Shown here piece after piece: positions 1 through 38,008 of a DNA stretch of 64,000 bases. Numbering within the stretch: position 1 is the stretch's first letter; the number at the start of each line of letters is the position of its first letter. Source of the stretch: Neisseriaceae bacterium ESL0693 (GTDB taxonomy: Bacteria; Pseudomonadota; Gammaproteobacteria; Burkholderiales; Neisseriaceae); assembly GCA_029433475.1 (NCBI GenBank), contig JAQTIE010000012.1, positions 1-64,000 on the forward strand, written 5' to 3'. Position numbers and translations under genes: made by a program. Below the pieces are notes generated by a model that made no database searches, had not been told where the DNA came from, and saw only the letters and a list, made by a program, of their open reading frames with translations.

Positions 1-100
1 TATATGGCAATACTTAAGAGTAAAACCCACAACAGGCTAAAATTTTAGAGAAAATTTTACTTTCAGATGGGGTGGAGATCATGAATGTATTCGTAATCAA

Positions 101-308
101 TTTCTAAGCTGCTTGTGCGGTAGTGAACGCTCGGTTTTTAAATGTTCAATATTAATTGTCTTTCTAAGCTACCTATACGGCAGTGAACTTGGAATGGTTT
201 CAGCAATTTTAATGTATGCTTTTCTAAGCTGCCTATACGGCAGTGAACGGTTTCAATCTACAGGTTGTACCCATTGGTATTTTCTAAGCTGCCTATACGG
301 CAGTGAAC
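101..308 (-). CRISPR. CRISPR array 1 (4 repeats, 3 spacers)
   Basis: Repeats of 28 bp start at 101, 161, 221 and 281, with 32-bp spacers. Read on the minus strand the repeat begins GTTCACTGCC and ends with AGCTTAGAAA. It has a short CTGCC/GGCAG stem typical of type I-F. Most copies here carry the GTATAGG variant in the loop. The leader lies on the right, so the newest spacer is at 249-280. The trailer-end repeat (101-128) has drifted. The trailer spacer (129-160) is identical to one in array 2. No cas gene is adjacent. Confidence 0.96.
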
Positions 309-5415: not shown

Positions 5416-5688
5416 TCATTCAGTATGTTGATTTTCAGCCCTTGCTGCTGCATGGATCAGAAAATTTAAGAGGTCAGACAGAATACAGACAGCCTGTAGT
5501 TTTTCTAGCGCTCTGGCTTCATGCCAGCTTTTATCTTCTGCATGCACTGAACAAGCGGCGGCATAAGCGCCATAACTGATGCCTTGGAGACTATAAGACA
5601 GTTCGTAAAGTGCCTGATGGATATCTTCCTGATTTAACTGTGTAGGAATTTCGGCAAGATTCAGAATTTTTTGAGTGTATGAGTACAT
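5416..5688 (-). CDS. Small helical protein, family B (unknown function)
   Basis: A 90-residue, probably all-helical soluble protein. I do not recognise a named domain. Features are a middle block ALYELSYSLQGISYGAYAAA and a leucine-rich C-terminal half (LEKLQAVCILSDLLNFL). The start has a GAGGTG ribosome site 7-8 nt upstream. A broken relative lies at 32745-32999, right after array 7. The overall pattern (helical, about 90 residues, central aromatic/Ala block, Leu-rich end) recalls family A, but I cannot claim homology. Upstream lies an Ash/Icd-like overlapping frame. Downstream of array 2's trailer, it may belong to the same type of satellite-like module. Confidence 0.6.
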   Translation of the reverse strand: MYSYTQKILNLAEIPTQLNQEDIHQALYELSYSLQGISYGAYAAACSVHAEDKSWHEARALEKLQAVCILSDLLNFLIHAAARAENQHTE

Positions 5689-5870
5689 TGATGCACCTCA
5701 CTTTATGCCGATTCTGCTGATAAAGCAGGTGGCAGACAAATGACAAGGTTGAACAGCTGGATTGAATGAAAACCAGTAGGCATAAGCCTCCTTGCCATTG
5801 TCCACCATAGACAAATAGCATGATGCCAACACAAGACCGCCAATTTTAAGTTGGCGGTGTTATGTCATTC
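5591..5870 (-). other. Ash/Icd-like leader region of the family-B gene
   Basis: A hairpin (arms ACCGCC/GGCGGT near 5840-5863) precedes a frame starting at 5821 whose product begins MLFVYGGQWQGGLCLLVF and overlaps the family-B start in another frame. The YGG-x-W-x-GL pattern recurs before both family-A genes. It resembles the Ash/Icd-like frames of P4/P1-type elements, in which the upstream frame overlaps the next gene. That match is from memory of the family pattern, not a search. Confidence 0.35.
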
Positions 5871-6122
5871 AAATTTCAGCTGTTCAAAGCTGGTTGCAAA
5901 AAAAACATAGCAACAGGAATATTGTAACTATAGCTATTCATTTAGTCTAGTAAATGTTGTTGTCTTTTTCTTCTGCTGTTTCTGTTGTTATTAATTATGA
6001 GTATAGAGAAGTGTAGATGCCATATATGGCAATACTTAAGAGTAAAACCCACAACAGGCTAAAATTTTAGAGAAAATTTTACTTTCAGATGGGGTGGAGG
6101 TAATGAATATATTCGTAATCAA

Positions 6123-6270
6123 TTTCTAAGCTGCTTGTGCGGCAGTGAACGCTCGGTTTTTAAATGTTCAATATTAATTGTCTTTCTAAGCTACCTATAC
6201 GGCAGTGAACGGGTAAGCAGCTTGGCGATAAAGACTCTTTGTTTTCTAAGCTACCTATACGGCAGTGAAC
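6123..6270 (-). CRISPR. CRISPR array 2 (3 repeats, 2 spacers)
   Basis: Repeats start at 6123, 6183 and 6243. The leader is on the right. The trailer-end repeat, its spacer (6151-6182) and about 100 bp of trailer flank duplicate 1-188 of this window. The first repeat is part of a 390-bp inverted copy shared with arrays 6/7. The loop variant GTATAGG with TAGC is shared with arrays 1 and 7. The trailer flank 5871-6122 holds no gene. Confidence 0.95.
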
Positions 6271-6403
6271 AGTAAGCATATCGCAAAAATACTCAATAAA
6301 TCAAATCAATATTCTGTTTTTGTTCAAAATACCCAAATTTTTGCCCTATTTTTAAATCATTGTTTTTATAATATAAATATTCGGAGTGAAAAATTTGGGT
6401 CTG
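6271..6403 (-). promoter_or_regulatory. CRISPR leader of array 2
   Basis: Leader copy abutting array 2. By eye identical, in inverted orientation, to the leader of array 7 (31869-32001). Confidence 0.85.
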
Positions 6404-6604
6404 ACCGCTATGGCAGTAATCGCTAAATTGGCGATTGAGTGACATAAAACTATGGCTTGAACTGCCCGCCGTGATTGTAGTTTTTACGGTGAGTAACTTC
6501 AGATATTTGGTTAGATAACACCATTATCGGCATCAGGCAGACGAAACAAATCAGCCAACAAACCTTGTCTGACTACCTGAATTGATCACATCAGTGGTAC
6601 CTAT
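6404..6604 (-). pseudogene. Family-A 3' remnant plus terminator between arrays 3 and 2
   Basis: On the minus strand a decayed copy of the last ~30 codons of the family-A gene is recognisable by its GGCTGATTTGTTTCGTCTGC and CCGATAA blocks. It is followed by the conserved segment ending at leader 2. The stretch is the inverted twin of 31668-31868. No open frame survives. Confidence 0.6.
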
Positions 6605-6872
6605 TTTTTAAGCTGCCTATGCGGCAGTGAACCAGCGCAATGAACGCTTTCCGGACGACCATATTTTCTAAGCTACCTATGCGGCAGTGAACCGTGAGGC
6701 AGAATTGCAAAGGTTAAAAGCAGATTTCTAAGCTACCTATGCGGCAGTGAACAATATTCCGCCGACTGGCACAATCAATCAGGGTTTCTAAGCTACCTAT
6801 GCGGCAGTGAACAAGCTGGCGTCCACTTGCATCACACTGCCTTTTTTCTAAGCTACCTATGCGGCAGTGAAC
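6605..6872 (-). CRISPR. CRISPR array 3 (5 repeats, 4 spacers)
   Basis: Repeats start at 6605, 6665, 6725, 6785 and 6845 with regular 32-bp spacers. The leader is on the right. The trailer-end repeat (6605-6632) carries the C-to-T change seen in array 6's last repeat, and the two are identical. The inner repeats carry the GCATAGG/TAGC variant. Its spacers differ from those of array 6. Confidence 0.96.
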
Positions 6873-7145: not shown

Positions 7146-7512
7146 CGGCATACCCATAATTCTAAACCGCTTTATGAGACAGTAAACGGGTCTGTTGGCT
7201 GGCGGTGGTTTATTTCGCGTAGTTGATCTGTCTGATCGATAACAGTTTTATAAACTGCTTATGCTATTAAACATCATGACACGGTTTAAAATGCGGATGC
7301 AATGGCTAAATTTATATCAGTTTAGCAAAGCGAGGGCCCTTTATACCGATAGGCAATGGTGCTTACTATATTGAATGATTAAAGGTATAAGTGCAAAGAA
7401 TGCGCCATTGTCGGGCGTGAAAACGGCCATCAGAAACAGCCATAAAGCTATTTTCATATTGGTTTTTACATCTATGAAGACAATATTTGCCGTTCGACAT
7501 GTTAACAGCCAT

Positions 7513-11735: not shown

Positions 11736-12196
11736 TCATTCTACTACTGGCTCAGCACAGCCTGATGATATTGATGACAGCCCTAGCCGCAATCAGTATA
11801 GAAAACCGGTTTATATTAAACAGCCGTGCACACAAAGGTTTAATATTCCGCCATCAGATCATGATCTGATCACTGCATGCATCAGTTTGAATACATTGCT
11901 GAAATATCGCCGCCCATCATCATTTTGGAGGCTTTTACGGCCATAGGTTATTTTAGTTGCTGGTCAGGCCGACCTATCATTCAGACGGATCACCACCATC
12001 AAGCGTTGACTGATCAGCTTATCCCCCTGTAAATGAATTATTTCTACTTCCTTTGGTACAAAATAAAACCATGTGTATATTATTTTTCTGTGGTTATTTA
12101 TATTGATTTACCAGATGATAAAATTTTTTGTCCATTAACCATCGTCACTATTTCACTGCCATTTCTCTTAGCCCACCTAAAGGTGATCTCAAATCA

Positions 12197-12499
12197 TCAT
12201 ATCTCAGCAGTGAGAATAAACCAGAGAATGATAACAGTAGAAATAATAAAAGAAATACCCACCATACAACACAGTCTCAATAACCAGATAGCATACCCAT
12301 TTTTAACCGGCACCAGATTAAAAATCGCTTTTACCAGAAAACTGAATAACTCCGTCCGCTCTTTACCATATAATTCAAAATAGCTTTTAACGCCTTTTTC
12401 CTCTTTGCAAATAAAATAAGCAACGGCCGAACCCATAATGACAACCATGACAAAAAATACTAGATAATAAATATCAATTTCATATGAAAATAAAATCAT
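12197..12499 (-). CDS. Small membrane protein of unknown function
   Basis: A 100-residue protein with two hydrophobic helices (about 10-28, YYLVFFVMVVIMGSAVAYFI, and 75-97) flanking a charged loop. The ATG at 12499 is preferred because GAAGGGAT lies 8 nt upstream. An ATG at 12520 is the alternative. I recognise no family. The surrounding bases are AT-rich and gene-poor: 12500-13010 shows no gene. Confidence 0.45.
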   Translation of the reverse strand: MILFSYEIDIYYLVFFVMVVIMGSAVAYFICKEEKGVKSYFELYGKERTELFSFLVKAIFNLVPVKNGYAIWLLRLCCMVGISFIISTVIILWFILTAEI

Positions 12500-13009
12500 T
12501 ATTTTATCCCTTCTCATCAATGTAAACGCAATCTTTTATGGGGAGAACAATCAGTCTGTAAAATGTAAACCGCAGTACCTGACTCAGAACGTATGGCTAC
12601 TTCAATCAGCACAAATTTTCAATAAAAACTATTTTTAAAATAAACATTAATATTTTGCTCTATTCACTCATGAATTCTGTAGGATTATAGTGACAAAATA
12701 TTTTTTAATAATTCTTTTTTATCGAAATTTGATATAAAGCAATATTCATGCCAATAATCATTAAAAATAAAATAATCTTCTATGTATTGCCGCTATGACA
12801 GCAGTTTAAACACCTGATTCAGTCAGAAATACAGACAAAATCATATCTCATTTAATATATTTCCGAGCCATTAAGCCAAACTGGTTGATTCATAATTACG
12901 GCAATATTGATCTCTTTTGCGCGAAGTGCCGATAAACACCCCTGATCATGATGGCTGACACCATAAACCTGATAAACACCTGTTTCTTAAACCCACTAAA
13001 TACCAGACA

Positions 13010-13158
13010 AAAAAGAATTATTTTTTAATCAAACGACTGGCCGATAAACAGGAAGAGCTGGCCAACAAAATACAGAATTTCAGATAATGCATTTATCCAC
13101 TGATTTGGCCTATCTGCCTGATATTGATAACAACACTAGCCGACCAAATATCTGAAAT
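13010..13158 (+). pseudogene. Family-A gene remnant upstream of array 4
   Basis: The 3' half of a family-A gene is recognisable from AATTATTTTTTAATCAAACG (equivalent to the NYVLIERLAD region of the intact copies) to the TATCTGAAATGATTCAC junction. It has stop codons and indels. The 5' half is missing. It is followed by the conserved terminator hairpin (GCAGCCAGCTCTGGCCGCTG near 13183-13203) and leader 4. Confidence 0.65.
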
Positions 13159-13250
13159 GATTCACTATAAAAACGTAACTTCCGCAGCCAGCTCTGGCCG
13201 CTGTTTTATCGCTAATTAATCGCTGATTTAGCGATTGCCGCCAGAACGCG

Positions 13251-13383
13251 CAGACCCAAATTTTTTACCCTGAATATTTACATTGTAAAAACAATGATTT
13301 AAAAATCAGCTAAAATTTTGGGTATTTTGAACAGAAACAAAATATTAATTTGATTTATTGGGTATTTTTGCGATATGCTTACT
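13251..13383 (+). promoter_or_regulatory. CRISPR leader of array 4
   Basis: Leader copy of 133 bp ending directly at the first repeat. It holds the CCCAAATTTTTT and AAAATTTTGGGT blocks and the closing TTGCGATATGCTTACT. Confidence 0.88.
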
Positions 13384-14372
13384 GTTCACTGCCGCATAGG
13401 CAGCTTAGAAATCTATGGCATACCGGGCATGAGTGTGCCTTATGTTCACTGCCGCATAGGCAGCTTAGAAATACCCGTTGTCATGGAATGAGCAACATGT
13501 GTTGTTCACTGCCGCATAGGCAGCTTAGAAAAAGCATTCTTTGCTTGTTGCTTGTTGAATTTCGTTCACTGCCGCATAGGCAGCTTAGAAATTACCTAAA
13601 AGGGGAGCGCATTATAGCGCAAGGTTCACTGCCGCATAGGTAGCTTAGAAATTCTTCTCTTTGAAGCATGTTTAAGCAATCTTGTTCACTGCCGCATAGG
13701 TAGCTTAGAAATGCGTGTTCTGGGTTTTGATTTTGTTGGTTTAGTTCACTGCCGCATAGGTAGCTTAGAAATCAATCAGGCGTTCTGTACCATTTTTTGT
13801 ATAGTTCACTGCCGCATAGGCAGCTTAGAAATTACCAGCTACATTTCTTGTTACTTCAAGAGTGTTCACTGCCGCATAGGCAGCTTAGAAAGAACTCATT
13901 CGACGCACCTTCAAAAACCGGAAGTTCACTGCCGCATAGGCAGCTTAGAAAGCTATTTAGTTTCATGCGAGCCAGTAGCAAGTGTTCACTGCCGCATAGG
14001 CAGCTTAGAAAAGTGACTGTGTGGTCACTGGTGAGCGGGTAATGTTCACTGCCGTATAGGCAGCTTAGAAAGTCGCCCAGTGCCGCCATGCCGCGTTCTG
14101 ATTGTTCACTGCCGTATAGGCAGCTTAGAAAAGATTTTGATTTTCCCATTAAAAATGGTTGTAAGTTCACTGCCGTATAGGCAGCTTAGAAACACTCTTA
14201 GAGTGGGATTTTCTTTTTGTGTGTGTTGACTGTCGTGTAGGTAGCTTAGAAACTAAGTTTACTATAAAAAAGCCAGCTATTTGCTGTTCACTGCCGTGTA
14301 GGCAGCTTAGAAAAGAATAGGCATCAAGGATTTAGGCTTACCATGTTCACTGCCGCATAGGCAGCTTAGAAA
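13384..14372 (+). CRISPR. CRISPR array 4 (17 repeats, 16 spacers)
   Basis: The largest array. Thirteen repeats run at exact 60-bp steps from 13384 to 14104. Four more start at 14165, 14225, 14286 and 14345, with spacers of 31-33 bp. Loop variants come in blocks: GCATAGG/CAGC, then GCATAGG/TAGC, then GCATAGG/CAGC again, then GTATAGG, then a degenerate copy at 14225. The spacer at 14132-14164 resembles spacers in arrays 5 and 9. Confidence 0.98.
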
Positions 14373-14439
14373 GCTGTGTCGTAATGGTATAAAGAATTTT
14401 CAGAACTTCTTGTCACACAAACAGCTTCAACATATTGCA

Positions 14440-14600
14440 ACACCCAAACAACCGCCGCCTTTAATTTCCCTTTCAGACGGCGGTTTTTATGTCTGCTTTT
14501 ATGTCTTCGCTACACTTTGTTAGCGGATATACCGTAGACAATGGCCAAGCGGCGTTGTGTTTTGGTGTATTTCAGCCTGTCCATTCGGGCATTTATTGGC
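14440..14600 (+). other. Partial copy of the cassette control region
   Basis: An ACCGCCGCC...GGCGGT hairpin with a TTTTT tail (14449-14486) is followed by ATGTCTG and a decayed YxVDNG reading frame. It parallels the intact segments at 14870-14990 and 37140-37270. It looks like a degraded tandem copy of the Ash/c4-like control region. No intact gene is present between 14600 and 14810. Confidence 0.4.
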
Positions 14601-14809
14601 TTTCTCAGCCAGCTGGCCTTTATTTAGCGCTTTTGATATCAATACGAAAACTGATGTTATGGTGCAAATCCACTAGGCGTTTTATGTCTGATCGTGGGGT
14701 ACTGTCTGGGTTTATTTCCTTGTGTGATTCAAGATAGCAACCGCTGGTTTAGTGTGTTGGATAATCATTTCTGCCCATTTGGATTGGGTATTGACACTTA
14801 TGCCTAAAA

Positions 14810-15204
14810 GCCGCACTATAAACCTGCTGCGTTCAATAGCGTGGCCAGCTTTAGCAGGCTGTTTCCAAACGGCAGACGAGCCGCCTTTAATTGCCTTTTA
14901 GGCGGCGGTTTTATGTCTGATTTCATGTCATTGCTACATTTTTTATGGTAGACAATGGCGGGAATACGTTGCGCCTGCTAGCTCGTTTGGTACAGTCTCT
15001 ATTCTGCCGTTGTCTTTCTCTACAAACGTTTAGCAATGGTTTAAAGGCATTAGACCCAAACGGGAGAAGTTCATATGATGGCGATTATCTACACGGCGTT
15101 TTCACGCCCGATCAGGCTGCATATCATGCGCCTGTTCTCTGTTTTGTTGCAAAATATTTCATTAAATCATCGTGCTGTGGTTTTTGTGGCCTTCGGAGGT
15201 ACTG
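14810..15204 (+). other. Conserved c4/Ash-like control region before family-A gene 1
   Basis: It shares with 37105-37437 the order TTCAATAGCGTGG, GGCAGACGAGCCGC, a GCGGCGGTTTT hairpin tail, TATGTCTGAT, and a frame reading FYGRQWREYVAPAS. A GGAGGT ribosome site leads into the family-A start. In P1 and P4 elements a c4-type antisense RNA followed by an overlapping icd/ash frame controls the next gene. The likeness is structural and from memory. Confidence 0.4.
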
Positions 15205-15205
15205 C

Positions 15206-15472
15206 ATGAAAACCTATAGCGTAAATCATGATTTGCTGGCGCCGGTTGCTGATGCTTTGCTTAAGCTGGATCGCTTTAGCTGGTATGCGGACGTGCTGGC
15301 GGCCAGTATGCAACACAGCGCCCGCCAGCGGGATTATGTTTTAATGGAGCGTCTGGCCGATATGCTGGAAGAGCTGGCCGGTGAAGCGCAGAATTGTCAG
15401 GCGGCGGATTTGTCGGCCGATCTGTCTCGTCTGCTTGATGCCGATCACAGTGCCACCCAACAAAACTCCTGA
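15206..15472 (+). CDS. Small helical protein, family A, copy 1
   Basis: An 88-residue protein starting MKTYSVNHDLLAPVADALLK, with a GGAGGT ribosome site upstream of the ATG. It appears fully helical. Conserved blocks are DALLKL, FSWYADVLAASMQHSA and ERLADMLEELAGEAQN, with a SADLSRLLDAD tail. It is about 80% similar by eye to the copy at 37438. I do not recognise a known domain. It is followed by a terminator and a CRISPR leader whose array has decayed to half a repeat. Its repeated position next to CRISPR leaders and behind a satellite-like control region suggests a role in immunity control or an anti-CRISPR-like role; neither is shown. Confidence 0.7.
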   Translation: MKTYSVNHDLLAPVADALLKLDRFSWYADVLAASMQHSARQRDYVLMERLADMLEELAGEAQNCQAADLSADLSRLLDADHSATQQNS

Positions 15473-15499
15473 ACTGATTCACAGCAAAACCACAACCTC

Positions 15500-15526
15500 A
15501 GCGGCCAAACCCGGCCGCTTATTTTA
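15500..15526 (+). terminator. Intrinsic terminator after family-A gene 1
   Basis: Arms AGCGGCC and GGCCGCT with TTATTTT following. The same hairpin lies in the same place after the copy at 37438. Confidence 0.8.
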
Positions 15527-15604
15527 TCGCTCCTGCTTTACTGTTTTATGGCTGCTGTTATCACCCAGTCAATCGCCGGTTTAGCAATCATTTCCAGCCC
15601 CACG

Positions 15605-15749
15605 CAGACCCACTTTTTACTTATAATTTTTAAATATTAAAAACAATGAGTTAAAATCAGTCTTAAAATTTTGGGTATTTTAAAAAATAGAATATTAACT
15701 TGATTTATTGAGTATTTTTACGATATGTTTACTGTTCACTGCTGTGTAG
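15605..15749 (+). CRISPR. Decayed CRISPR locus: leader plus a truncated repeat
   Basis: A clear but drifted leader copy (15605-15733) is followed by GTTCACTGCTGTGTAG (15734-15749), the first 16 bases of a repeat. The sequence then departs from the repeat. No spacers remain, so this is a dead or nearly deleted array. Confidence 0.75.
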
Positions 15750-15839
15750 ATTGATAGGGTATTTTGAACTATTGAATTTATTTTCAGAAAGGTTAATTTA
15801 AGTGTCTGATTTTTCAATGACTTTGTAAGAAAAAAAGAT

Positions 15840-16210
15840 ATGGCTGAAAGTATTACTACTTTTTTGAAGGGACTATCCAGGTAACTTATGATCAGATTAC
15901 TGAAGATGCCGTTGCTATGTTTGGAACTATGTTACAAGCAACAGCAAATGGTACAAAAGCCATGCTAACGTTTTTTTCTCTACCCATTCAGAAACTTTTC
16001 TCTGAATTGTTATCGGTTCCCGTAATAACAGGATTCGCTTTTCTTTCTATACTTCGTTTTGCTTATAATGAAAGTGTTGATTACGCACTTGATAAAGTAG
16101 CCAGTATGATTGTTGACGAAATAGTTAAATACCGATCATCTAAGATTTGTTACCAAACTGTAAGATTGAAATGGCGCTCACCTATGCAAATAGTTTTATT
16201 ATGGATTTAA
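15840..16210 (+). pseudogene. Small gene split by a frameshift in a T-run (unknown function)
   Basis: The ATG at 15840 opens MAESITT and then meets a run of six T. Adding one T joins it in frame to a continuous coding stretch through TFFEGTIQVTYDQITEDAVA and the hydrophobic LSVPVITGFAFLSILRFAY to the stop at 16210, about 123 residues in all. As it stands, only the part from the ATG at 15917 (97 residues) is open. This could be a pseudogene, slippage-dependent expression or a sequencing error. I recognise no family. A hairpin terminator follows. Confidence 0.45.
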
Positions 16211-16215
16211 CTATA

Positions 16216-16258
16216 AACAACAGGCTGTATTGAATCTAGCCTGTTGTTATTTTCTTTT
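16216..16258. terminator. Bidirectional terminator
   Basis: Perfect 11-bp arms AACAACAGGCT and AGCCTGTTGTT, with T-rich sequence on the right. It sits between convergent small genes. Confidence 0.75.
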
Positions 16259-16570
16259 TGTCCTGGTTTTTTGATTTTTTGATTTTGCTTTTTCGTAAGC
16301 CCAGAATAAGCCATTTAATAAACCAAAAACCACAGTGTATACAATAGACATTATGTTTTTAGAATTTTCGATGCAGACAGGTGGGATTGGAAAAATCAAC
16401 CAGACAAAGAAACCAACAAAAGCAATAAACAGAACCTTTTTAATGAGTGTTTCCAAGTAAGGCGATGATGCCCAGATATAAGCAACATAGAAAAACATAC
16501 AAATTACAAGAAAATTAGATCTCAGAGTGCCATAAAAAGGACAAAAAGGTATTTCATCTATAGTTAACAC
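16247..16570 (-). CDS. Small membrane protein of unknown function
   Basis: A 107-residue protein with about three hydrophobic helices (around 18-36, 43-62 and 73-92) and a strongly basic tail, KAKSKNQKTRTKRK. It overlaps the convergent terminator at its 3' end. No recognised domain. It is convergent with the frameshifted gene to its left, and the two may have come in together as an accessory pair. The remaining bases to 16920 show no gene. Confidence 0.4.
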   Translation of the reverse strand: MLTIDEIPFCPFYGTLRSNFLVICMFFYVAYIWASSPYLETLIKKVLFIAFVGFFVWLIFPIPPVCIENSKNIMSIVYTVVFGLLNGLFWAYEKAKSKNQKTRTKRK

Positions 16571-16924
16571 CCTTTCAATTACATAGAACGATTATCACCT
16601 CTGTCTACATACTATTTCTGCTTTTTATCTGTATTAATAATGTGTTTTGTTTATTCAATTCTGAGTTTACTGTTCCTGATTCTTTGCTCGTTTGTAATCG
16701 CTTGTTGCATGATGTTATCAATTGCGCATTTTTTTCTTCAATGCTGTATTTTTTCTAAACTTAAGGGTTAATGTAAATAAAGTCTGTGAAGTGGTTTGAA
16801 CATTGCTTATGTATTTTCAAGAGCATATGATTGCCTCGATGGGTGTTCCGGCCAGCGCGGATTTGTGATGTGGGTGATATTTTTGTCCGGCCGCTATGGG
16901 CATGATGGGCGATACGCAAAGATA

Positions 16925-16980
16925 AAGACCAAGGTTTTAAATCCGGCCGCTGCATTGTGCCATTTTAAAACCTTGGTCTT
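16925..16980. terminator. Long hairpin beside tRNA-Arg
   Basis: Perfect 17-bp arms at 16925-16941 and 16964-16980 (AAGACCAAGGTTTTAAA) around a 22-nt loop. It lies just downstream of the tRNA on the minus strand, where it can serve as its terminator. A single arm-like copy (CCAAGGTTTTAAAATC) recurs near 56134. Confidence 0.5.
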
Positions 16981-16991
16981 GGGGTATTCGG

Positions 16992-17067
16992 TGGTGCACC
17001 CAACAGGGATCGAACCTGTGACCTCCGGCTTCGGAAACCGACACTCTTCCAACTGAGCTATGGATGC
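16992..17067 (-). tRNA. tRNA-Arg (anticodon CCG)
   Basis: On the minus strand a 76-nt cloverleaf: acceptor arms GCATCCA/TGGGTGC, D-arm AGCTCAGTTGGAAGAGT, anticodon loop TTCCGAA (anticodon CCG), T-loop GGTTCGATCCC, and encoded ACCA. The arms pair fully except for G-T wobbles. The stretch 17068-17340 shows no gene. Confidence 0.94.
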
Positions 17068-21926: not shown

Positions 21927-22672
21927 TGTCCACAGAAAATTTGCCCACCACCACCGCACAACCACAGAATGTTGATCCGGGTGAAATCGATAAATTTAGC
22001 CAGCTGGCTCATAAATGGTGGGATAAAGAAAGCGAATTCAAGCCATTACATGAGATTAATCCATTGCGGCTGAAATTTATTGATGATTATGCTGCCATCA
22101 GCGGCAAAACCATTCTGGATGTCGGTTGCGGCGGCGGTATTCTGACCGAAGCATTGGCTCAGGCAGGGGCAGAATCAGTCACCGGTATTGATCTGGCTTC
22201 AAAATCATTGAAAATTGCCAAACTACATGCGCTGGAAAACAAAGTAAAAAATGTTAACTACCGCGTGGTAAGCGTGGAAGAACTGGCGCAGGAATCACCG
22301 GCACACTTTGATGTGGTCACCTGCATGGAAATGCTGGAACATGTGCCCGACCCTGCCAGCGTGGTGCGCGCCTGCGCTAGCCTAGTGCGACCTGATGGCA
22401 TTGTCTGCTTTTCCACCATCAACCGCAATCCCAAATCTTACCTGCAAGCAGTGGTGGCTGCCGAATACCTGTTAAAACTGATGCCGCGCGGCACCCACGA
22501 TTACCGTAAATTCATCACTCCAGCCGAACTGGCGCGCTTATGCCGCGCGGCCGGGCTGGAATGGATCGGCAGCAGTGGTTTCAGTTATAATCCATTAAAT
22601 AAAAAATATTATTTAACTGACCGGCTGGACGTAAACTACATGATTGCCTGTCGCAAACCAGCCAATGCTTAA
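21926..22672 (+). CDS. ubiG: Ubiquinone biosynthesis O-methyltransferase
   Basis: UbiG carries out both O-methylations of the ubiquinone ring using S-adenosylmethionine. The ATG at 21926 overlaps the preceding stop (TAATG) and gives 248 residues starting [10 protein letters not shown]. The motif order is class I methyltransferase: [22 protein letters not shown] (family signature), [13 protein letters not shown] (SAM site, about 60-72), TGIDLASKS, then [13 protein letters not shown] and [10 protein letters not shown] near the end. Its coupling to a GT39-like gene is unusual in function. A CAACCGGC...GCCGGTTGA hairpin (22678-22716) may terminate the unit. Confidence 0.95.
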
Positions 22673-22899
22673 AACCTCAACCGGCACCAGCTGATAAATC
22701 AGAATGGCCGGTTGATACAAGGCTACTTGGCAATACTCTAACCGGCGGACACAGAAAACGCATGTTTAGTGCTACGTGAATCGTTGAGAACAACCTATTA
22801 GGTAACACTTTCATTATGCTGATTCACCGCCATATTAGGCAGATTGGAAATAGAAATAAAGAACAGCCTCATTATTTCTCGAATTCATTGCCATTGGGG

Positions 22900-23072
22900 C
22901 AGTTTAGAAGGACAGATACTATTGATGCAATCAATTCAGATTGTCAGGCGCAGAATTTATCGGCTGATTTATCCCGCCTGCCTGATACCGATAACGGCAT
23001 TATTCCACCGAATATCTGAAGTTATTCATAATAAAAACCACAACCGCAGCGACCAGATATGGCCGCTGTTTT
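22900..23072 (+). pseudogene. Family-A remnant and terminator upstream of leader 5
   Basis: GATTGTCAGGCGCAGAATTT through GATACCGATAAC to ATCTGAAGTTATTC matches the last ~30 codons of family A. Upstream codons are missing. The conserved terminator hairpin follows at 23047-23072 (CAGCGACC...GGCCGCTG then TTTTATT). The bases between ubiG and this remnant hold nothing else recognisable. Confidence 0.6.
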
Positions 23073-23114
23073 ATTGCCAGTTCATGCCAATTTAGCGATT
23101 GCCGCCAGAACGCC

Positions 23115-23247
23115 CAGACCCAAATTTTTTACCCTTAATATTTCCAATATAAAAACAATGAGTTAAAAATAGGCTAAAATTTTGGGTATTTTGAGCAGAA
23201 ACAGAATATTAATTTGATTTATTGGGTATTTTTGCGATATGCTTACT
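23115..23247 (+). promoter_or_regulatory. CRISPR leader of array 5
   Basis: A 133-bp leader copy ending directly at the first repeat and closest to the leader of array 4. Confidence 0.88.
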
Positions 23248-23994
23248 GTTCACTGCCGCATAGGCAGCTTAGAAAATTATAATGTTGCCTATGTATCATA
23301 TTCATTGGTTCACTGCCGCATAGGCAGCTTAGAAAACCACTATTCGGAGAAAGAGCACAATCCGGCCAATGTTCACTGCCGCATAGGCAGCTTAGAAAAT
23401 AAGAGAAGGAATTAAAGCTGTGATTAATGAGTTCACTGCCGCATAGGCAGCTTAGAAAACCGCGATAATTGCCAAATGGCGTGGTAAATTGTTCACTGCC
23501 GCATAGGCAGCTTAGAAAAAAGCCCGGACATAATAATTTTTGGGGTGTTCGTTCACTGCCGCATAGGCAGCTTAGAAAGAATGGCTTACCTGATTTTGAT
23601 TTTCCTATTAGTTCACTGCCGCATAGGCAGCTTAGAAAATGCAAAGCGGCCAATTGTGACCCCTTTTTCTGTTCACTGCCGCATAGGCAGCTTAGAAAGA
23701 CTTACACTGCTAAAGTTTTATTATCCAGTCGTTCACTGCCGCATAGGCAGCTTAGAAAGCTCATTTCATTCCCCTCACGGGGTGGCCGTTGTTCACTGCC
23801 GCATAGGCAGCTTAGAAAGATACCATGAGCTATTATTATCAATAGATGTTGTTCACTGCCGCATAGGCAGCTTAGAAACATTGAAAAGAATGTTATTGGA
23901 CGTATTAAGACGTTCACTGCCGCATAGGCAGCTTAGCATATCTGACCTGATCTACGTTATAAGTCCGTTCACTGCCGCACAGACAGCTTAAAAA
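23248..23994 (+). CRISPR. CRISPR array 5 (13 repeats, 12 spacers)
   Basis: Repeats start at 23248, 23308, 23371, then every 60 bp to 23851, then 23912 and 23967. The first eleven are all the canonical variant, so the array looks young and uniform. The second spacer (23336-23370) is 35 bp rather than 32. The last two repeats have drifted, with a 27-bp final spacer. The spacer at 23579-23610 shares a TTTTGATTTTCC core with spacers in arrays 4 and 9. The 350 bp that follow (23995-24344) show no gene. Confidence 0.98.
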
Positions 23995-24344
23995 ATTTAT
24001 CGACCAGGACAAATTTTGGTTGTCATTCGTTGCTGCGCAGAGATAAATCAGATCAATCCAGTTTGATCAACACGAAAAGCCACAATCATTGGTCTGAATT
24101 TCTTATAAAGCAGGCAAAATATAAAGTAAGCAAAATGGTCTGACTTTCATTTATCCACTAATCCCAGACAGCTTTGTCTGTCTACTCAATAGACAGATAA
24201 AGTGTATACCGATCGCTGGGGTATTGGTGTTGTCCTCTAGGCGTTTGGATATCAGCCAAAATCAAACACCGGCATGACGCACAGTAAAGGCTGAGCTGGT
24301 GCTTGATTCATGCGTTTGACAGCCTGCGCCGGATATTGTCAGCA

Positions 24345-24944
24345 TTAATTAAACACTTTAAAGCGCTCAGCATCGCCAATAAACGTTTTCACCGGAAATG
24401 GCGCCTTATTGCTACCAAAAGGCATCATGGCGCGTAATTTCCACGCATCGGGAATTGACCACGCTTTGGCAATAGCGGCATCAGGCAATGGATTATAGTG
24501 TTGCAGGCTGGCGCCGATATTGGCATTAGCCAGGGCACACCATACTGCAAATTGTGCCATGCCGCTGCTTTGTTCTGACCAGACGGGAAAATTATCGGCA
24601 TAACTCGGATACTCTTGTTGCAGGGCTTTTACCGTATCCTGATCTTCATAAAACAAAATGGTGCCGGCGCCGGCGGCAAACCCATTGATTTTGTCCTGAG
24701 TAGGTGCAAAACGCTCTGCCGGTACGATGGCTTTCAAGGCGTCCATGACAAATTGCCAGAACTGATGATGTGCCTCATGATACAAAATAACCACGCGCGA
24801 ACTTTGGGAATTAAAGGCAGAAGGTGTCAATTTGACCGCCTCTTCAATCAGCGCGGTGACTTCTTCCTGCGGTAAAGACAACTCATTGCCCAAAGCATAT
24901 TGAGTACGGCGTTTTTCCATGGCTTCGATAAAGACATTATTCAT
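24345..24944 (-). CDS. Nitroreductase-family protein
   Basis: A 199-residue flavin-dependent oxidoreductase of the nitroreductase superfamily, with a strong AAGGAG ribosome site before the ATG. Conserved points are the FMN-phosphate-binding RRTQY near residues 12-16, the SAFNSQSSRVV block (about 42-52) and the C-terminal MMPFGSNKAPFP. The family reduces nitro compounds, quinones or enals with NAD(P)H; the true substrate is unknown. The shape is closest to the fungal-type/YdgI-like short nitroreductases. It stands alone next to CRISPR array 5. Confidence 0.88.
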   Translation of the reverse strand: MNNVFIEAMEKRRTQYALGNELSLPQEEVTALIEEAVKLTPSAFNSQSSRVVILYHEAHHQFWQFVMDALKAIVPAERFAPTQDKINGFAAGAGTILFYEDQDTVKALQQEYPSYADNFPVWSEQSSGMAQFAVWCALANANIGASLQHYNPLPDAAIAKAWSIPDAWKLRAMMPFGSNKAPFPVKTFIGDAERFKVFN

Positions 24945-31459: not shown

Positions 31460-31667
31460 GTTCACTGCCGCATAGGCAGCTTAGAAAAATTGCCTGTCTA
31501 AATCGGCAAAATCAACCTCGTTCACTGCCGCATAGGCAGCTTAGAAATGGCTGAAATTTCATCAATTGATATTGCAAGCGTTCACTGCCGCATAGGCAGC
31601 TTAGAAATACAGTGTTAGTAATGACTCAAACGTATTCTGGTTCACTGCCGCATAGGCAGCTTAAAAA
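31460..31667 (+). CRISPR. CRISPR array 6 (4 repeats, 3 spacers)
   Basis: Repeats start at 31460, 31520, 31580 and 31640 with 32-bp spacers. The last repeat carries the TTAAAAA ending. It is identical to array 3's last repeat and begins the 390-bp inverted twin of 6243-6632. Confidence 0.96.
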
Positions 31668-31868
31668 ATAGGTACCACTGATGTGATCAATTCAGGTAGT
31701 CAGACAAGGTTTGTTGGCTGATTTGTTTCGTCTGCCTGATGCCGATAATGGTGTTATCTAACCAAATATCTGAAGTTACTCACCGTAAAAACTACAATCA
31801 CGGCGGGCAGTTCAAGCCATAGTTTTATGTCACTCAATCGCCAATTTAGCGATTACTGCCATAGCGGT
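31668..31868 (+). pseudogene. Family-A 3' remnant plus terminator between arrays 6 and 7
   Basis: The decayed tail of family A (GTTGGCTGATTTGTTTCGTC, TGATGCCGATAATG) is followed by the CTGAAGTTACTCACC junction and a weak GCGGGCAG...ATAGTTTTATG hairpin segment. By eye it is base-for-base the reverse complement of 6404-6604. Confidence 0.6.
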
Positions 31869-32001
31869 CAGACCCAAATTTTTCACTCCGAATATTTATA
31901 TTATAAAAACAATGATTTAAAAATAGGGCAAAAATTTGGGTATTTTGAACAAAAACAGAATATTGATTTGATTTATTGAGTATTTTTGCGATATGCTTAC
32001 T
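31869..32001 (+). promoter_or_regulatory. CRISPR leader of array 7
   Basis: Leader copy identical by eye to the leader of array 2, in the opposite orientation. Confidence 0.87.
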
Positions 32002-32440
32002 GTTCACTGCCGTATAGGTAGCTTAGAAACGCTAGGGCATTGGTCCAATTCCCTGCCCATGTGTTCACTGCCGTATAGGTAGCTTAGAAAAAAGTGCCAC
32101 TGCGCTCACTGGTTCGTAGCGCGTTCACTGCCGTATAGGTAGCTTAGAAACCTTGAATTTTTTAAAGCGGCTGATGATATTCGTTCACTGCCGTATAGGT
32201 AGCTTAGAAAAATGGGGCGGCGATCAATTGCGGCAATGCGCGGTTCACTGCCGTATAGGTAGCTTAGAAAATGTGAGGTTGATGTCGAATCAATACAAGT
32301 TAGTTCACTGCCGTATAGACAGCTTAGAAATGCGCTGAGTTAGACAGTGTTAATGCGCACTAGTTCACTGCCGTACAGGCAGCTTAGAAACATCATGTAA
32401 AACACAAAGCCCTGAGCCAGCGTCCACTACCGTGTAGATA
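32002..32440 (+). CRISPR. CRISPR array 7 (7 repeats, 6 spacers, plus a degenerate end)
   Basis: Repeats start at 32002, 32063, 32123, 32183, 32243, 32303 and 32363. The first five carry GTATAGG/TAGC, as in arrays 1 and 2. The sixth reads GTATAGACAGC and the seventh GTACAGG. A badly decayed eighth copy (GTCCACTACCGTGTAG) starts at 32422. The first spacer is 33 bp, the others 32. The next 300 bp to 32740 show no gene, only a lone repeat end (GGCAGCTTAGAAA) at 32684-32696. Confidence 0.96.
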
Positions 32441-32744: not shown

Positions 32745-32999
32745 GACAAATCATACTCAATTAAGCCAAGTATTCATTAAGCACTTTATGAGCTGTCTGA
32801 CAGCTTTCAAGACATTAGCCATGGCGCTTATGCCGCCGCTTATTCAGTACACACAGAAGATAAAATCTGGCATGAAGCTAAAGTTTTAGAAAAACTACAG
32901 GCTATTTGTATTCTGACTGAACTGTTAAACTTTCTGGTACATACAGAAGCGCGGTTAAATCTGAATCGGAATAAAGACCGTAAAAAAGCTGAAAAATAA
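32745..32999 (+). pseudogene. Broken family-B gene after array 7
   Basis: Reading with one frame correction gives TQL-Q...ALYELSDSFQDISHGAYAAA, then HTEDKIWHEAKVLEKLQAIC, ending LNFLVHTEARLNLNRNKDRKKAEK at the stop 32997-32999. This is clearly homologous to the intact protein at 5416-5688. A 4-bp deletion near 32772 and a CAA-to-TAA type change break the frame, and the N-terminal end is lost. Confidence 0.75.
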
Positions 33000-33726: not shown

Positions 33727-33951
33727 ATGAAAAAGAAATTAGCTTATTTAACTGCATTGGCTATTTTAAGCACTTCTATGGCTGCCGCCTCTGCTGCCCC
33801 AGCTACACGTTGTATTGGTATTGGTAGCGGCTGTAGCAGTAGCTGTGGTAATGGTGGTAATGGTGGTAATGGTGGTGGTAGTATTAGCGGCGGTGGTAGT
33901 TGGTCATGGCAAAGCCAAGGAGAATGGTCTTGGTCATGGTTATGGCACTAA
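33727..33951 (+). CDS. Small secreted Gly/Ser/Trp-rich peptide, microcin-like
   Basis: A 74-residue precursor with a strong AGGAG ribosome site. The N-terminus (MKKKLAYLTALAILSTSMAA) is a classic Sec signal with a likely cleavage after ASA near residue 23. The mature part carries three cysteines (RC, SGCSSSC), a glycine/asparagine run (GNGGNGGNGGG) and an aromatic tail of alternating Trp-Ser (SWSWQSQ, then WSWSWLWH). I recognise no family. The build suggests a small secreted or surface peptide, possibly antimicrobial. No modification, immunity or export genes are seen beside it. A terminator follows at once, so it is a single-gene unit. Confidence 0.65.
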   Translation: MKKKLAYLTALAILSTSMAAASAAPATRCIGIGSGCSSSCGNGGNGGNGGGSISGGGSWSWQSQGEWSWSWLWH

Positions 33952-34689: not shown

Positions 34690-34717
34690 GTTTACTGCCG
34701 CATAAGCAGCTTAGAAA
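34690..34717 (+). CRISPR. Solitary CRISPR repeat
   Basis: A lone repeat with two changes (GTTTACTGCC start, CATAAGCAGC middle), no leader and no neighbour at +/-60 bp. It is a relic of a lost array or a seed left by recombination. The stretch 34718-35074 shows no gene. Confidence 0.7.
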
Positions 34718-36016: not shown

Positions 36017-36645
36017 GTTCACTGCCGCATAGGCAGCTTAGAAAATATCGAAGCAAAACAAGCTTCACACCGCATCGTTCACTGCCGCATAGGCAGCTTA
36101 GAAAAATATTTCCTGCCGACGTTCATATTCTGAATCGTTCACTGCCGCATAGGCAGCTTAGAAAGCCATCCTGAAGGTTCAACCCGTGACCAGCACGTTC
36201 ACTGCCGCATAGGCAGCTTAGAAAAGCATAACGGCACTACGGCCTGGGCGGGTGATGTTCACTGCCGCATAGGTAGCTTAGAAACGTTAGGGACTTTGTA
36301 TAGCGTGCCTTATTTTCGTTAACTGCCGCATAGGTAGCTTAGAAAATATTCTTTCTGATTCGAGTAGATTTTTTGTGGTTAACTGCCGCATAGGTAGCTT
36401 AGAAATAATTTATATCTTGAGAAATACAATGCCAGTAGTTCACTGCCGTATAGGTAGCTTAGAAAGTGGGTCATTCTGATGGCAATGGTTATTGCATGTT
36501 AACTGCCGTATAGGTAGCTTAGAAATTTTAGAAAGGCGCTCTAGGCACTCTGAATTAGTTCACTGCCGTACAGGCAGCTTAAAAAATAACGGTAACAAAT
36601 GGTCAAATCCTTGCGCTGTTCACTGCCACACAAACAGCTTAAAAA
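36017..36645 (+). CRISPR. CRISPR array 8 (11 repeats, 10 spacers), without a recognisable leader
   Basis: Repeats start at 36017, 36077, 36137, 36197, 36257, 36318, 36378, 36438, 36498, 36558 and 36618. The first four are canonical; later ones drift (GTTAACTGCC in three, GTATAGG, GTACAGG, and finally CACACAAACAGC). Unlike the other arrays the upstream 150 bp do not match the shared leader. Instead a GTTGCCGGCTCCGGGCACCA stretch lies at about 35953-35972. The array was therefore cut from its leader and probably cannot gain spacers. Confidence 0.97.
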
Positions 36646-37104: not shown

Positions 37105-37437
37105 TAACTGAACTACGTTCAATAGCGTGGTCAGTTGTCGCAGACTGATACATACAGGCAGACGAGCCGCTCATGATTTAGTGCGCGGTGTTTTTACGTC
37201 TGATTACCCTGCCAAACGTACTCCTTTCTATGGTGGACGATGGCAGAGAGGCCTTGTGCCTGCTGGTTATCTGTATGCCAGTCTGCGAACTCTGCCATTT
37301 GTCCCCTTCCGAAATTGTGTCGCAGCAATTCGGAGGGATTAAAGACCATACAGAAAAGGCAATATTATGTTGGTAAAATCGCTTAACTTATCCCAAGTTT
37401 TTAATCTGGGCACCACTGTGCAATCCGGAGGTGCCGC
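37105..37437 (+). other. Conserved c4/Ash-like control region before family-A gene 2
   Basis: TTCAATAGCGTGGTCAGTTG, then GGCAGACGAGCCGC, a GCGCGGTGTTTTTACGTCTG terminator-like element, and a frame reading FYGGRWQRGLVPAGYLYASL. The last 60 bp end in a CCGGAGGT ribosome site. The order equals that at 14810-15204. The resemblance to P1 c4-icd or P4 ash regions is an inference from layout and the YGG-x-W motif. Confidence 0.45.
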
Positions 37438-37704
37438 ATGAAAACCTACACCATCAACCACAATCTACTCGCCGCCGCGGCCGATGCTTTACTTAAACTG
37501 GAACATTTCAGCTGGTATACAGATATTCTGGCCGCAAGCATACAACACAGTGCCCAACACCAGAATTATGTTTTAATCGAACGACTGGCCGATATGCTGG
37601 AACAACTGGCCAGCGAAGCCCAGAATTGTCAGGCAGGAAACCTGTCGGCTGATTTATCCCATCTGCTTGATGCCGATAACAACGCTAGCCCACAAAATAC
37701 CTGA
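37438..37704 (+). CDS. Small helical protein, family A, copy 2
   Basis: An 88-residue, probably all-helical protein starting MKTYTINHNLLAAAADALLK, with the GGAGGT ribosome site 7 nt before the ATG. Blocks shared with copy 1: DALLKLEHFSWYTDILAASI, QHSA, ERLADMLEQLASEAQNCQA and SADLSHLLDAD. I recognise no domain. The gene is the centre of the best-preserved cassette: control region, this gene, terminator (37733), leader (37875) and an 11-repeat array (38009). Conservation of the protein while flanking copies decay suggests recent function. Candidate roles are a satellite regulator or a protein acting on CRISPR; neither is shown. Confidence 0.72.
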   Translation: MKTYTINHNLLAAAADALLKLEHFSWYTDILAASIQHSAQHQNYVLIERLADMLEQLASEAQNCQAGNLSADLSHLLDADNNASPQNT

Positions 37705-37732
37705 ACTGATTCACAACAAAAACCACAACCCC

Positions 37733-37758
37733 AGCGGCCAAACCCGGCCGCTTATTTT
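37733..37758 (+). terminator. Intrinsic terminator after family-A gene 2
   Basis: Arms AGCGGCC and GGCCGCT followed by TATTTTAT; matches the hairpin at 15500. Confidence 0.8.
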
Positions 37759-37874
37759 ATCGCCCTTGCTTTGCAGTTTATGACTACCGTTTTATCGCTG
37801 CTACTTTATGGTCGCTATTATTGGCAGTTAATTGGCAGTTAATCGCCAGTTTAGCCATCACCGCCAAACCCACT

Positions 37875-38008
37875 CAGACCCAAATTTTTTACCATTGATA
37901 TTTATATATTAAAAACAATGGTTTAAAAATAGGCTTAAAAATTTGGGTATTTTGAACAAAAACAGAATATTAACTTGATTTATTGAGTATTTTTACGATA
38001 TGCTTACT
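37875..38008 (+). promoter_or_regulatory. CRISPR leader of array 9
   Basis: Leader copy ending at the first repeat, downstream of the intact family-A cassette. Confidence 0.88.

Follow-up and report, generated by a model that had tools for sequence, protein, structure and literature searches.

The leaders of clustered regularly interspaced short palindromic repeat (CRISPR) arrays set the entry site of new spacers and drive transcription. According to the excerpts considered here, multiple arrays arise through duplication, transfer and splitting (PMC12814883), and both PMC11472070 and PMC8549365 refer to Kupczok et al. (2015) for the rarity of recombination between or within arrays. For CRISPR-associated inversions in Thermotogales, PMC5637354 and PMC5052741 cite DeBoy et al. 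(2006), and mixed repeats among Pyrobaculum arrays were tentatively ascribed to homologous recombination or to repeat copying from another array (PMC3396285, in excerpt). In a culture of Pyrobaculum oguniense, three inversions were polymorphic, two of them bounded by inverted duplications (one holding a CRISPR-associated gene; PMC3558965, in excerpt), so that flipping between inverted arms is a real possibility in nature. In this report, we analyse the first 64,000 nt of a contig of Neisseriaceae bacterium ESL0693, a bacterium of the bee gut (contig C4:1-64000, hereafter the window), taken from one draft assembly of 2.23 Mb in 25 contigs. The window contains two type I-F loci of two arrays each, which share in opposite orientation a 393-nt linker that was probably, though by no means certainly, made identical by recent gene conversion.

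The 393-nt linker of loci X and Y

Locus X, on the left, comprises arrays A2 and A3 on the minus strand, and locus Y, on the right, comprises arrays A6 and A7 on the plus strand (Table 1). The segment in X is the exact reverse complement of that in Y (393 nt, 100% identity, no mismatch), and the arms of the inverted pair are separated by 25,001 nt. The original prediction, made from the letters alone, had described an inverted repeat at 6243-6632 and 31640-32029. It proved exact, the identity running three nt further, to 6635 and 31637, and the alignment of the two segments revealed none of the many mismatches that would have spoken against it. As the three additional nt lie within unrelated spacers, their match may be coincidental. 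The composition then proposed (an end repeat, 201 bp of cassette remnant, a leader and a first repeat) was borne out as well, each piece being identical when checked separately. The two repeats of each copy belong to different arrays, A2 and A3 in X and A7 and A6 in Y. Likewise, the spacers on both sides differ as had been stated: none of the 15 spacers of A2, A3, A6 and A7 has an identical or similar counterpart at the other locus (E up to 0.01).

The degree of identity was assessed by comparing the 132 nt preceding the first repeat in 13 copies, i.e., those of 12 arrays and a decayed leader at 15.7 kb, which gave 78 pairs. Array A8 (36017-36645) was excluded because it has no recognisable form of the leader common to the other arrays. 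The A2-A7 pair is 100% identical and the remaining 77 of the 78 pairs range from 72 to 94% (82-94% for the 65 pairs that remain when the decayed copy is omitted and A2-A7 is set apart), with a median of 88% over all pairs. Within 400-nt leader modules, the longest exact run is 393 nt for A2-A7 vs 72 nt for the runner-up among the 13 modules, which places the A2-A7 match far above chance in this sequence comparison. The same figures bear on an assembly artefact, in which two similar linkers were merged into one consensus or wrongly joined. The draft state of the assembly, with its 25 contigs, and a similar-sized repeat next door, which probably broke the assembly at the ends of contigs C2 and C4, could be cited in its support. 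However, the assembler kept apart other leader pairs of up to 94%, both joins agree with the gene order of congeners (see below), and the array repeats run on normally at each join, so that we consider such an artefact very improbable.

Outside the identical tract, the two loci have diverged. The leaders of A3 and A6 are 88% identical, the small open reading frames (ORFs) on the trailer sides of X and Y are 81% identical, and the 380-500 bp between trailer-side ORF and array align poorly at both loci. The outer parts of X and Y thus clearly appear older than the linker, and the loci would be older paralogs. The usual mark of gene conversion is an identical tract within diverged paralogs, and this is the pattern found here (393 nt at 100% vs 88% and 81% outside). 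A larger double-array piece might also have been duplicated recently between the loci and then have undergone complete spacer turnover by acquisition at the leaders and deletion at the ends. Spacer turnover is called fast in the consulted part of PMC11472070, and arrays A1 and A2 illustrate that trailer-side pieces with a spacer do get duplicated in this genome; the divergence of the A3/A6 leaders and of the trailer-side ORFs, however, indicates a recent origin for the linker but not for the larger piece, and we regard this course of events as unlikely. A recent duplication of the whole locus is disfavoured in view of the spacers, the A3/A6 leaders and the trailer-side ORFs.

Table 1 Positions of the linker copies, their parts and related features in the window
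Feature	Position	Strand	Remarks
393-nt segment, copy X	6243..6635	-	exact match to copy Y
393-nt segment, copy Y	31637..32029	+	exact match to copy X
First (leader-proximal) repeat of A2	6243..6270	-	TATAGGT type
Leader of A2, 133 nt	6271..6403	-	identical to A7 leader
Remnant of C4-RNA/small-ORF cassette, 201 bp, copy X	6404..6604	-	ORF end and downstream part
Terminal repeat of A3	6605..6632	-	TTAAAAA variant, CATAGGC type
Terminal repeat of A6	31640..31667	+	leading part of copy Y
Cassette remnant, 201 bp, copy Y	31668..31868	+	identical to copy X remnant
Leader of A7, 133 nt	31869..32001	+	identical to A2 leader
First repeat of A7, copy Y	32002..32029	+	matches 6243..6270
Array A2	6123..6270	-	3 repeats, 2 spacers; oldest spacer common to A1
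Array A3	6605..6872	-	5 repeats, 4 spacers
Array A6	31460..31667	+	4 repeats, 3 spacers; TTAAAAA terminal repeat at end
Array A7	32002..32390	+	7 repeats, 6 spacers
A2 trailer side with C4 RNA	5419..6210	.	ends match end of contig C2 and window 1-188
Trailer-side small ORF, locus X	5444..5623	-	81% to 32771-32950; apparently older paralogy
Trailer-side ORF remnant, locus Y	32771..32950	+	81% to 5444-5623
Complete cassette before A9	37226..38008	+	C4 RNA 37226-37312, small ORF 37438-37704 (88 aa), leader
Decayed array before A5	22764..22910	+	relics 22883-22910 (19/28), 22823-22850 (16/28), weak 22764-22791 (15/28)
Possible decayed terminal repeat before A3 leader	7160..7187	-	17/28; no second relic 60 nt away

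Cassette remnant and age of the linker

The 201 bp of the remnant correspond to the 3' terminus of the C4-RNA/small-ORF cassette found complete before A9 and to the sequence downstream of it, in agreement with the label it had received in the original prediction. Before A5, 375 of the 390 segment positions align at 79%, and decayed repeats are followed by remnant and leader in the same order as in the 393-nt segment. The score of the A5 relic pair, whose members are 60 nt apart, was reached by none of 500 letter shuffles. This test was run on 5 of 14 upstream stretches, and elsewhere shuffles were often as good (388/500 for A4, 409/500 for A9 and 222/500 for A1). Since the same junction survives in decayed form before A5, a tandem of array, linker and array as at X and Y once existed at least at A5, and the linker is judged to be an old module. 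Before the leader of A3, where the evidence is weak, the remnant can also be aligned.

C4 antisense RNA is known from phage P1 immunity. Genome-wide, the Rfam family gave at least 41 matches at E<=0.001, 35 of them above the gathering score, from 150 of 281 candidates scored; in control genomes, it was found in 0 of 14. Sites in the window are located at 5725-5812 and 37226-37312, with others in L013, L014 and L015, and five matches lie in a row on contig C23, about 355 bp apart. Some C4 RNAs are followed by an ORF of 84-88 amino acids (aa) beginning with MKTY, and six members of this family were aligned. At curated cut-offs, the ORF family had no match in Pfam, NCBIfam or PADLOC; a single PHROG was matched at E 0.065, and no phage record was found.

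Second copying event on the trailer side of A1 and A2

A further recent duplication is found next to the linker. One end of the A2 trailer-side piece is identical in 187 of 190 nt to the end of contig C2 (L010 11146-11335), and the other in 184 of 188 nt to window 1-188, both in direct orientation. This corresponds to a direct duplication of about 0.8 kb with 98% identity at both ends, the middle of which was not seen in the other copy. Since genes close to the C2 end and genes at the start of contig C4 adjoin in the congeners G006 and G008, a collapsed copy of the duplication probably connects these contigs. Array A2 can be described from its parts as a mosaic of an A1-like tail, one private spacer and an A7-like leader. 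We count the copying on the A1/A2 trailer side, as a second recent event beside the 393-nt tract, in favour of gene conversion of the linker.

Proposed course and direction of the exchange

Homologous recombination served as the working assumption because the arms are long homologous arrays. The segment may be understood as a linker extending from the terminal repeat of an upstream array through cassette remnant and leader to the first repeat of the downstream array, in opposite orientation at X and Y. The two older paralogous loci would have paired within leader and remnant, whereupon one linker would have been copied onto the other by non-reciprocal homologous recombination, i.e., gene conversion, presumably with the participation of RecA. 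With no homology among the spacers farther out, the conversion tract would stop within the 28-nt repeats, and the outcome would be that one locus takes over the leader of the other while both keep their own spacers. The leaders presumably drive acquisition and transcription together with a single distant cas operon, and the copying may have had a functional effect. The terminal repeat of A3 is of the CATAGGC type, as are 4 of 4 repeats of A6, unlike the other four repeats of A3 (CATAGGT), which hints weakly at a transfer from Y to X; the first repeat (TATAGGT) gives no indication of direction.

Several points weigh against this interpretation. Copying is deduced from a snapshot of one draft genome, a similar picture would result if the linker had recently been duplicated and the spacers had then turned over, and the direction is read from a single base in each repeat. 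Before the A3 leader, the relic is weak, its 17/28 match being equalled by 10 of 200 shuffles, and another 17/28 match precedes the decayed leader at 15.7 kb; the top-scoring pair with 60-nt spacing before A3 is situated elsewhere, and 19 of 500 shuffles were as good. Nine uptake motifs were compared with the window, where one was found once and the other eight were absent.

A more far-reaching variant supposes that the linker is shuffled between arrays like an oversized spacer unit by recombination at the repeats, whereby arrays would be split, old spacers re-activated by a fresh leader, and 25 kb flipped by inverted copies so that spacer sets are reassorted against leaders. We consider it distinctly unlikely. 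Three other origins were rejected. Insertion of an oversized spacer by Cas1 is disfavoured as the flanking repeats differ (CATAGGC/TTAAAAA vs TATAGGT). With respect to import from a phage, both array pairs showed a weak match (E 0.06 and 0.08) to a single phage record common to the two, and with respect to import from a plasmid, the matches listed (10 of 19 records) were short and confined to the repeat ends of the query. The leader-repeat junction had no exact match in viral contigs or in genome contigs, the latter of which may omit the genome studied here. None of the 40 other genomes searched carries the leader, 3 of them being matched by repeat-sized pieces only (28-41 nt).

Gene order and the question of an inversion

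Window 1-60000 was compared as three queries with the congeners G006, G008, G003 and G011; gene names such as dcd, rdgC, VIT, OPT, serB, ffh, valS and ubiG were assigned by reading translations. The order dcd-rdgC, VIT gene, tRNA-Glu, OPT and serB is kept in all four, with a few kb between some of them; the peptidase gene following serB had a match in just two of them, G006 and G008, and tRNA-Glu is reversed in G011. The genes tRNA-Glu and OPT, which flank A2/A3 here, are at most 2 kb apart in all four congeners, and the distance between ffh and valS is about 0.7 kb in G006, G003 and G011 and 1.2 kb in G008; in the window, ffh and valS are separated by the A6-A9 region of 9.3 kb. Because both gene pairs are adjacent in 4/4 congeners, each 393-nt copy is still flanked by its ancestral neighbours, and the orientation in the assembly is the ancestral one, with no net flip. 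An invertible segment should show a flipped order relative to relatives at both copies, but all four congeners have the ancestral order. Thus, of the two processes invoked in the original prediction, recent copying between the array pairs is supported by the identical 393 nt vs 72-94% for other leaders and by the older flanks, whereas an inversion is not supported, given the ancestral neighbours, and was rejected as the present state.

Crossing over between the copies is physically possible; it would turn the 25 kb around, bringing A2 together with A6 and A3 together with A7, and no sign that this happened was found. Crossing over alone would not create the identity, for which copying is needed first. 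A reciprocal recombination that flips the segment and reassorts A2/A3 and A6/A7 would find a good substrate in the long perfect inverted arms, and it has parallels in the CRISPR loci at inversions in Thermotogales (as cited in PMC5637354 and PMC5052741) and in the population-polymorphic inversions of 22-173 kb in P. oguniense, two of which lie between inverted duplications (PMC3558965, in excerpt). The A4 site within the 25-kb segment is, moreover, a real synteny breakpoint. Against this stand the adjacency of tRNA-Glu/OPT and ffh/valS in the four congeners, which marks the present orientation as ancestral, and the absence of CRISPR repeats from either partner stretch of the A4 breakpoint, and we therefore give this alternative little credence.

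The 25-kb segment has not long existed as a unit, as the gene order jumps elsewhere at 11741-16992, around A4 and a C4 RNA cassette, with respect to all four congeners. G006 and G008 concur in what lies on the other side of each broken end; in the present genome, these former neighbours are on contigs C22 and C21, where one of the partner sites adjoins a C4 RNA (C21:127280-127366), so that the breakpoint may have arisen through a C4-mediated rearrangement. At window 22654-24351, where A5 is located, the 33-37 kb found in G006 and G008 between ubiG-like and nitroreductase-like genes are missing. The rearrangements near A4 and A5 are real, but they do not show the arrays to be their cause. Fourteen stretches of relatives, ten around OPT (congeners, nine including tRNA-Glu) and four around ffh (three Snodgrassella alvi strains and one Neisseriaceae metagenome-assembled genome), gave no match to C4 RNA or CRISPR families at the gathering score. 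On this comparison, the arrays seem to have been inserted in this lineage, and the notion that C4 cassettes were pre-existing landing pads at these sites in relatives was dropped.

Arrays, spacers and the type I-F system

The window contains nine arrays and a solitary repeat at 34690, and four further arrays are located on contigs C2 and C25, which gives at least 13 arrays in the stretches read; a search for the repeat pattern found 115 sites genome-wide. Rfam CRISPR-DR4 matched in 9/9 window arrays, and the repeats of 28 nt, spacers of about 32 nt and period of 60 nt are those of type I-F. From the 13 arrays, 98 spacers were extracted, of which 97 are distinct, the oldest spacer of A1 and A2 being the sole duplicate. 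Similar or overlapping spacers occur across arrays (spacer 13 of A4, spacer 6 of A5 and spacer 6 of A9; spacer 9 of A4 and spacer 6 of C2a), as if several arrays had sampled the same invader. Between the features of Table 1, an ORF of 74 aa at 33727-33951 has, by reading, a signal-like start and a Gly/Ser/Trp-rich tail and encodes perhaps a small secreted peptide.

In type I-F systems an array usually, though not necessarily, lies next to the cas operon. Here, a single I-F cas operon was found on contig C22, distant from the arrays, with all six genes (cas1, cas2-3 and csy1-4; PADLOC models) at 176-190 kb (L159); the 14 kb read around it (C22:176000-190000) contained no repeat at up to five mismatches. 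As the six genes are present, the arrays can be expected to serve one machinery. The host genus is read as Snodgrassella because the closest named ffh loci (n=4, 89%) are those of three S. alvi strains and one Neisseriaceae metagenome-assembled genome and because a stretch of G008, which is classed in the same genus, is 97.6% identical to S. alvi wkB298 across 6 kb. Csy3 was present in two of the 14 genus genomes searched, namely the present one and G012. The full I-F gene set contrasts with a honeybee study of 2025 (PMC12586679) which, in the part consulted, describes the Snodgrassella genomes of its set as lacking CRISPR and calls the genus CRISPR-free; a literature search for Snodgrassella together with type I-F yielded just one broad review.

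Comparison with known systems

The likenesses and differences outlined here refer to the parts of the cited sources that were consulted. At the level of titles and abstracts, and with few subscription papers covered, no description was found in the literature of arrays within a single genome exchanging their leader modules. In Thermotogales, as here, several dispersed arrays have similar repeats and recombination between distant loci occurs at arrays; there, however, the arrays mark large inversions, whereas the present genome has ancestral gene order and copying only (DeBoy et al. 2006, as cited in PMC5637354 and PMC5052741). The multi-array genomes of PMC12814883 resemble it in their many arrays, one cas locus, same consensus repeat and an occasional common last spacer, which corresponds to A1/A2, but the recently copied piece in our case is a leader-bearing inter-array linker without spacers. 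Homologous exchange within repeat-rich arrays is common to the cases of Kupczok et al. (2015) and to ours, the difference being that a leader module is exchanged here between paralogous loci of one genome. In Pyrobaculum, exchange between the arrays of one genome was likewise considered a cause of repeat mixing, and no identical leader-bearing segment is described in the consulted part (PMC3396285). The tuf genes offer a parallel outside CRISPR, in which conversion between two paralogs is coupled to inversion as a linked outcome (Hughes 2000, as listed in PMC8549365), with protein genes there and non-coding CRISPR leaders here.

If leaders are kept alike by conversion while spacers remain private, a dozen remote arrays could for a long time depend on one cas operon, and a new leader could come to stand before an old set of spacers. 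As recombination between arrays is described as rare (PMC8549365 and PMC11472070, in excerpt), a genome in which 13 arrays coexist with a clear exchange offers an instructive example. The two loci bear a real and clear footprint of recombination between CRISPR loci, the mechanism of which is ordinary and the unusual feature of which is the exchange of a leader-bearing linker instead of spacers.
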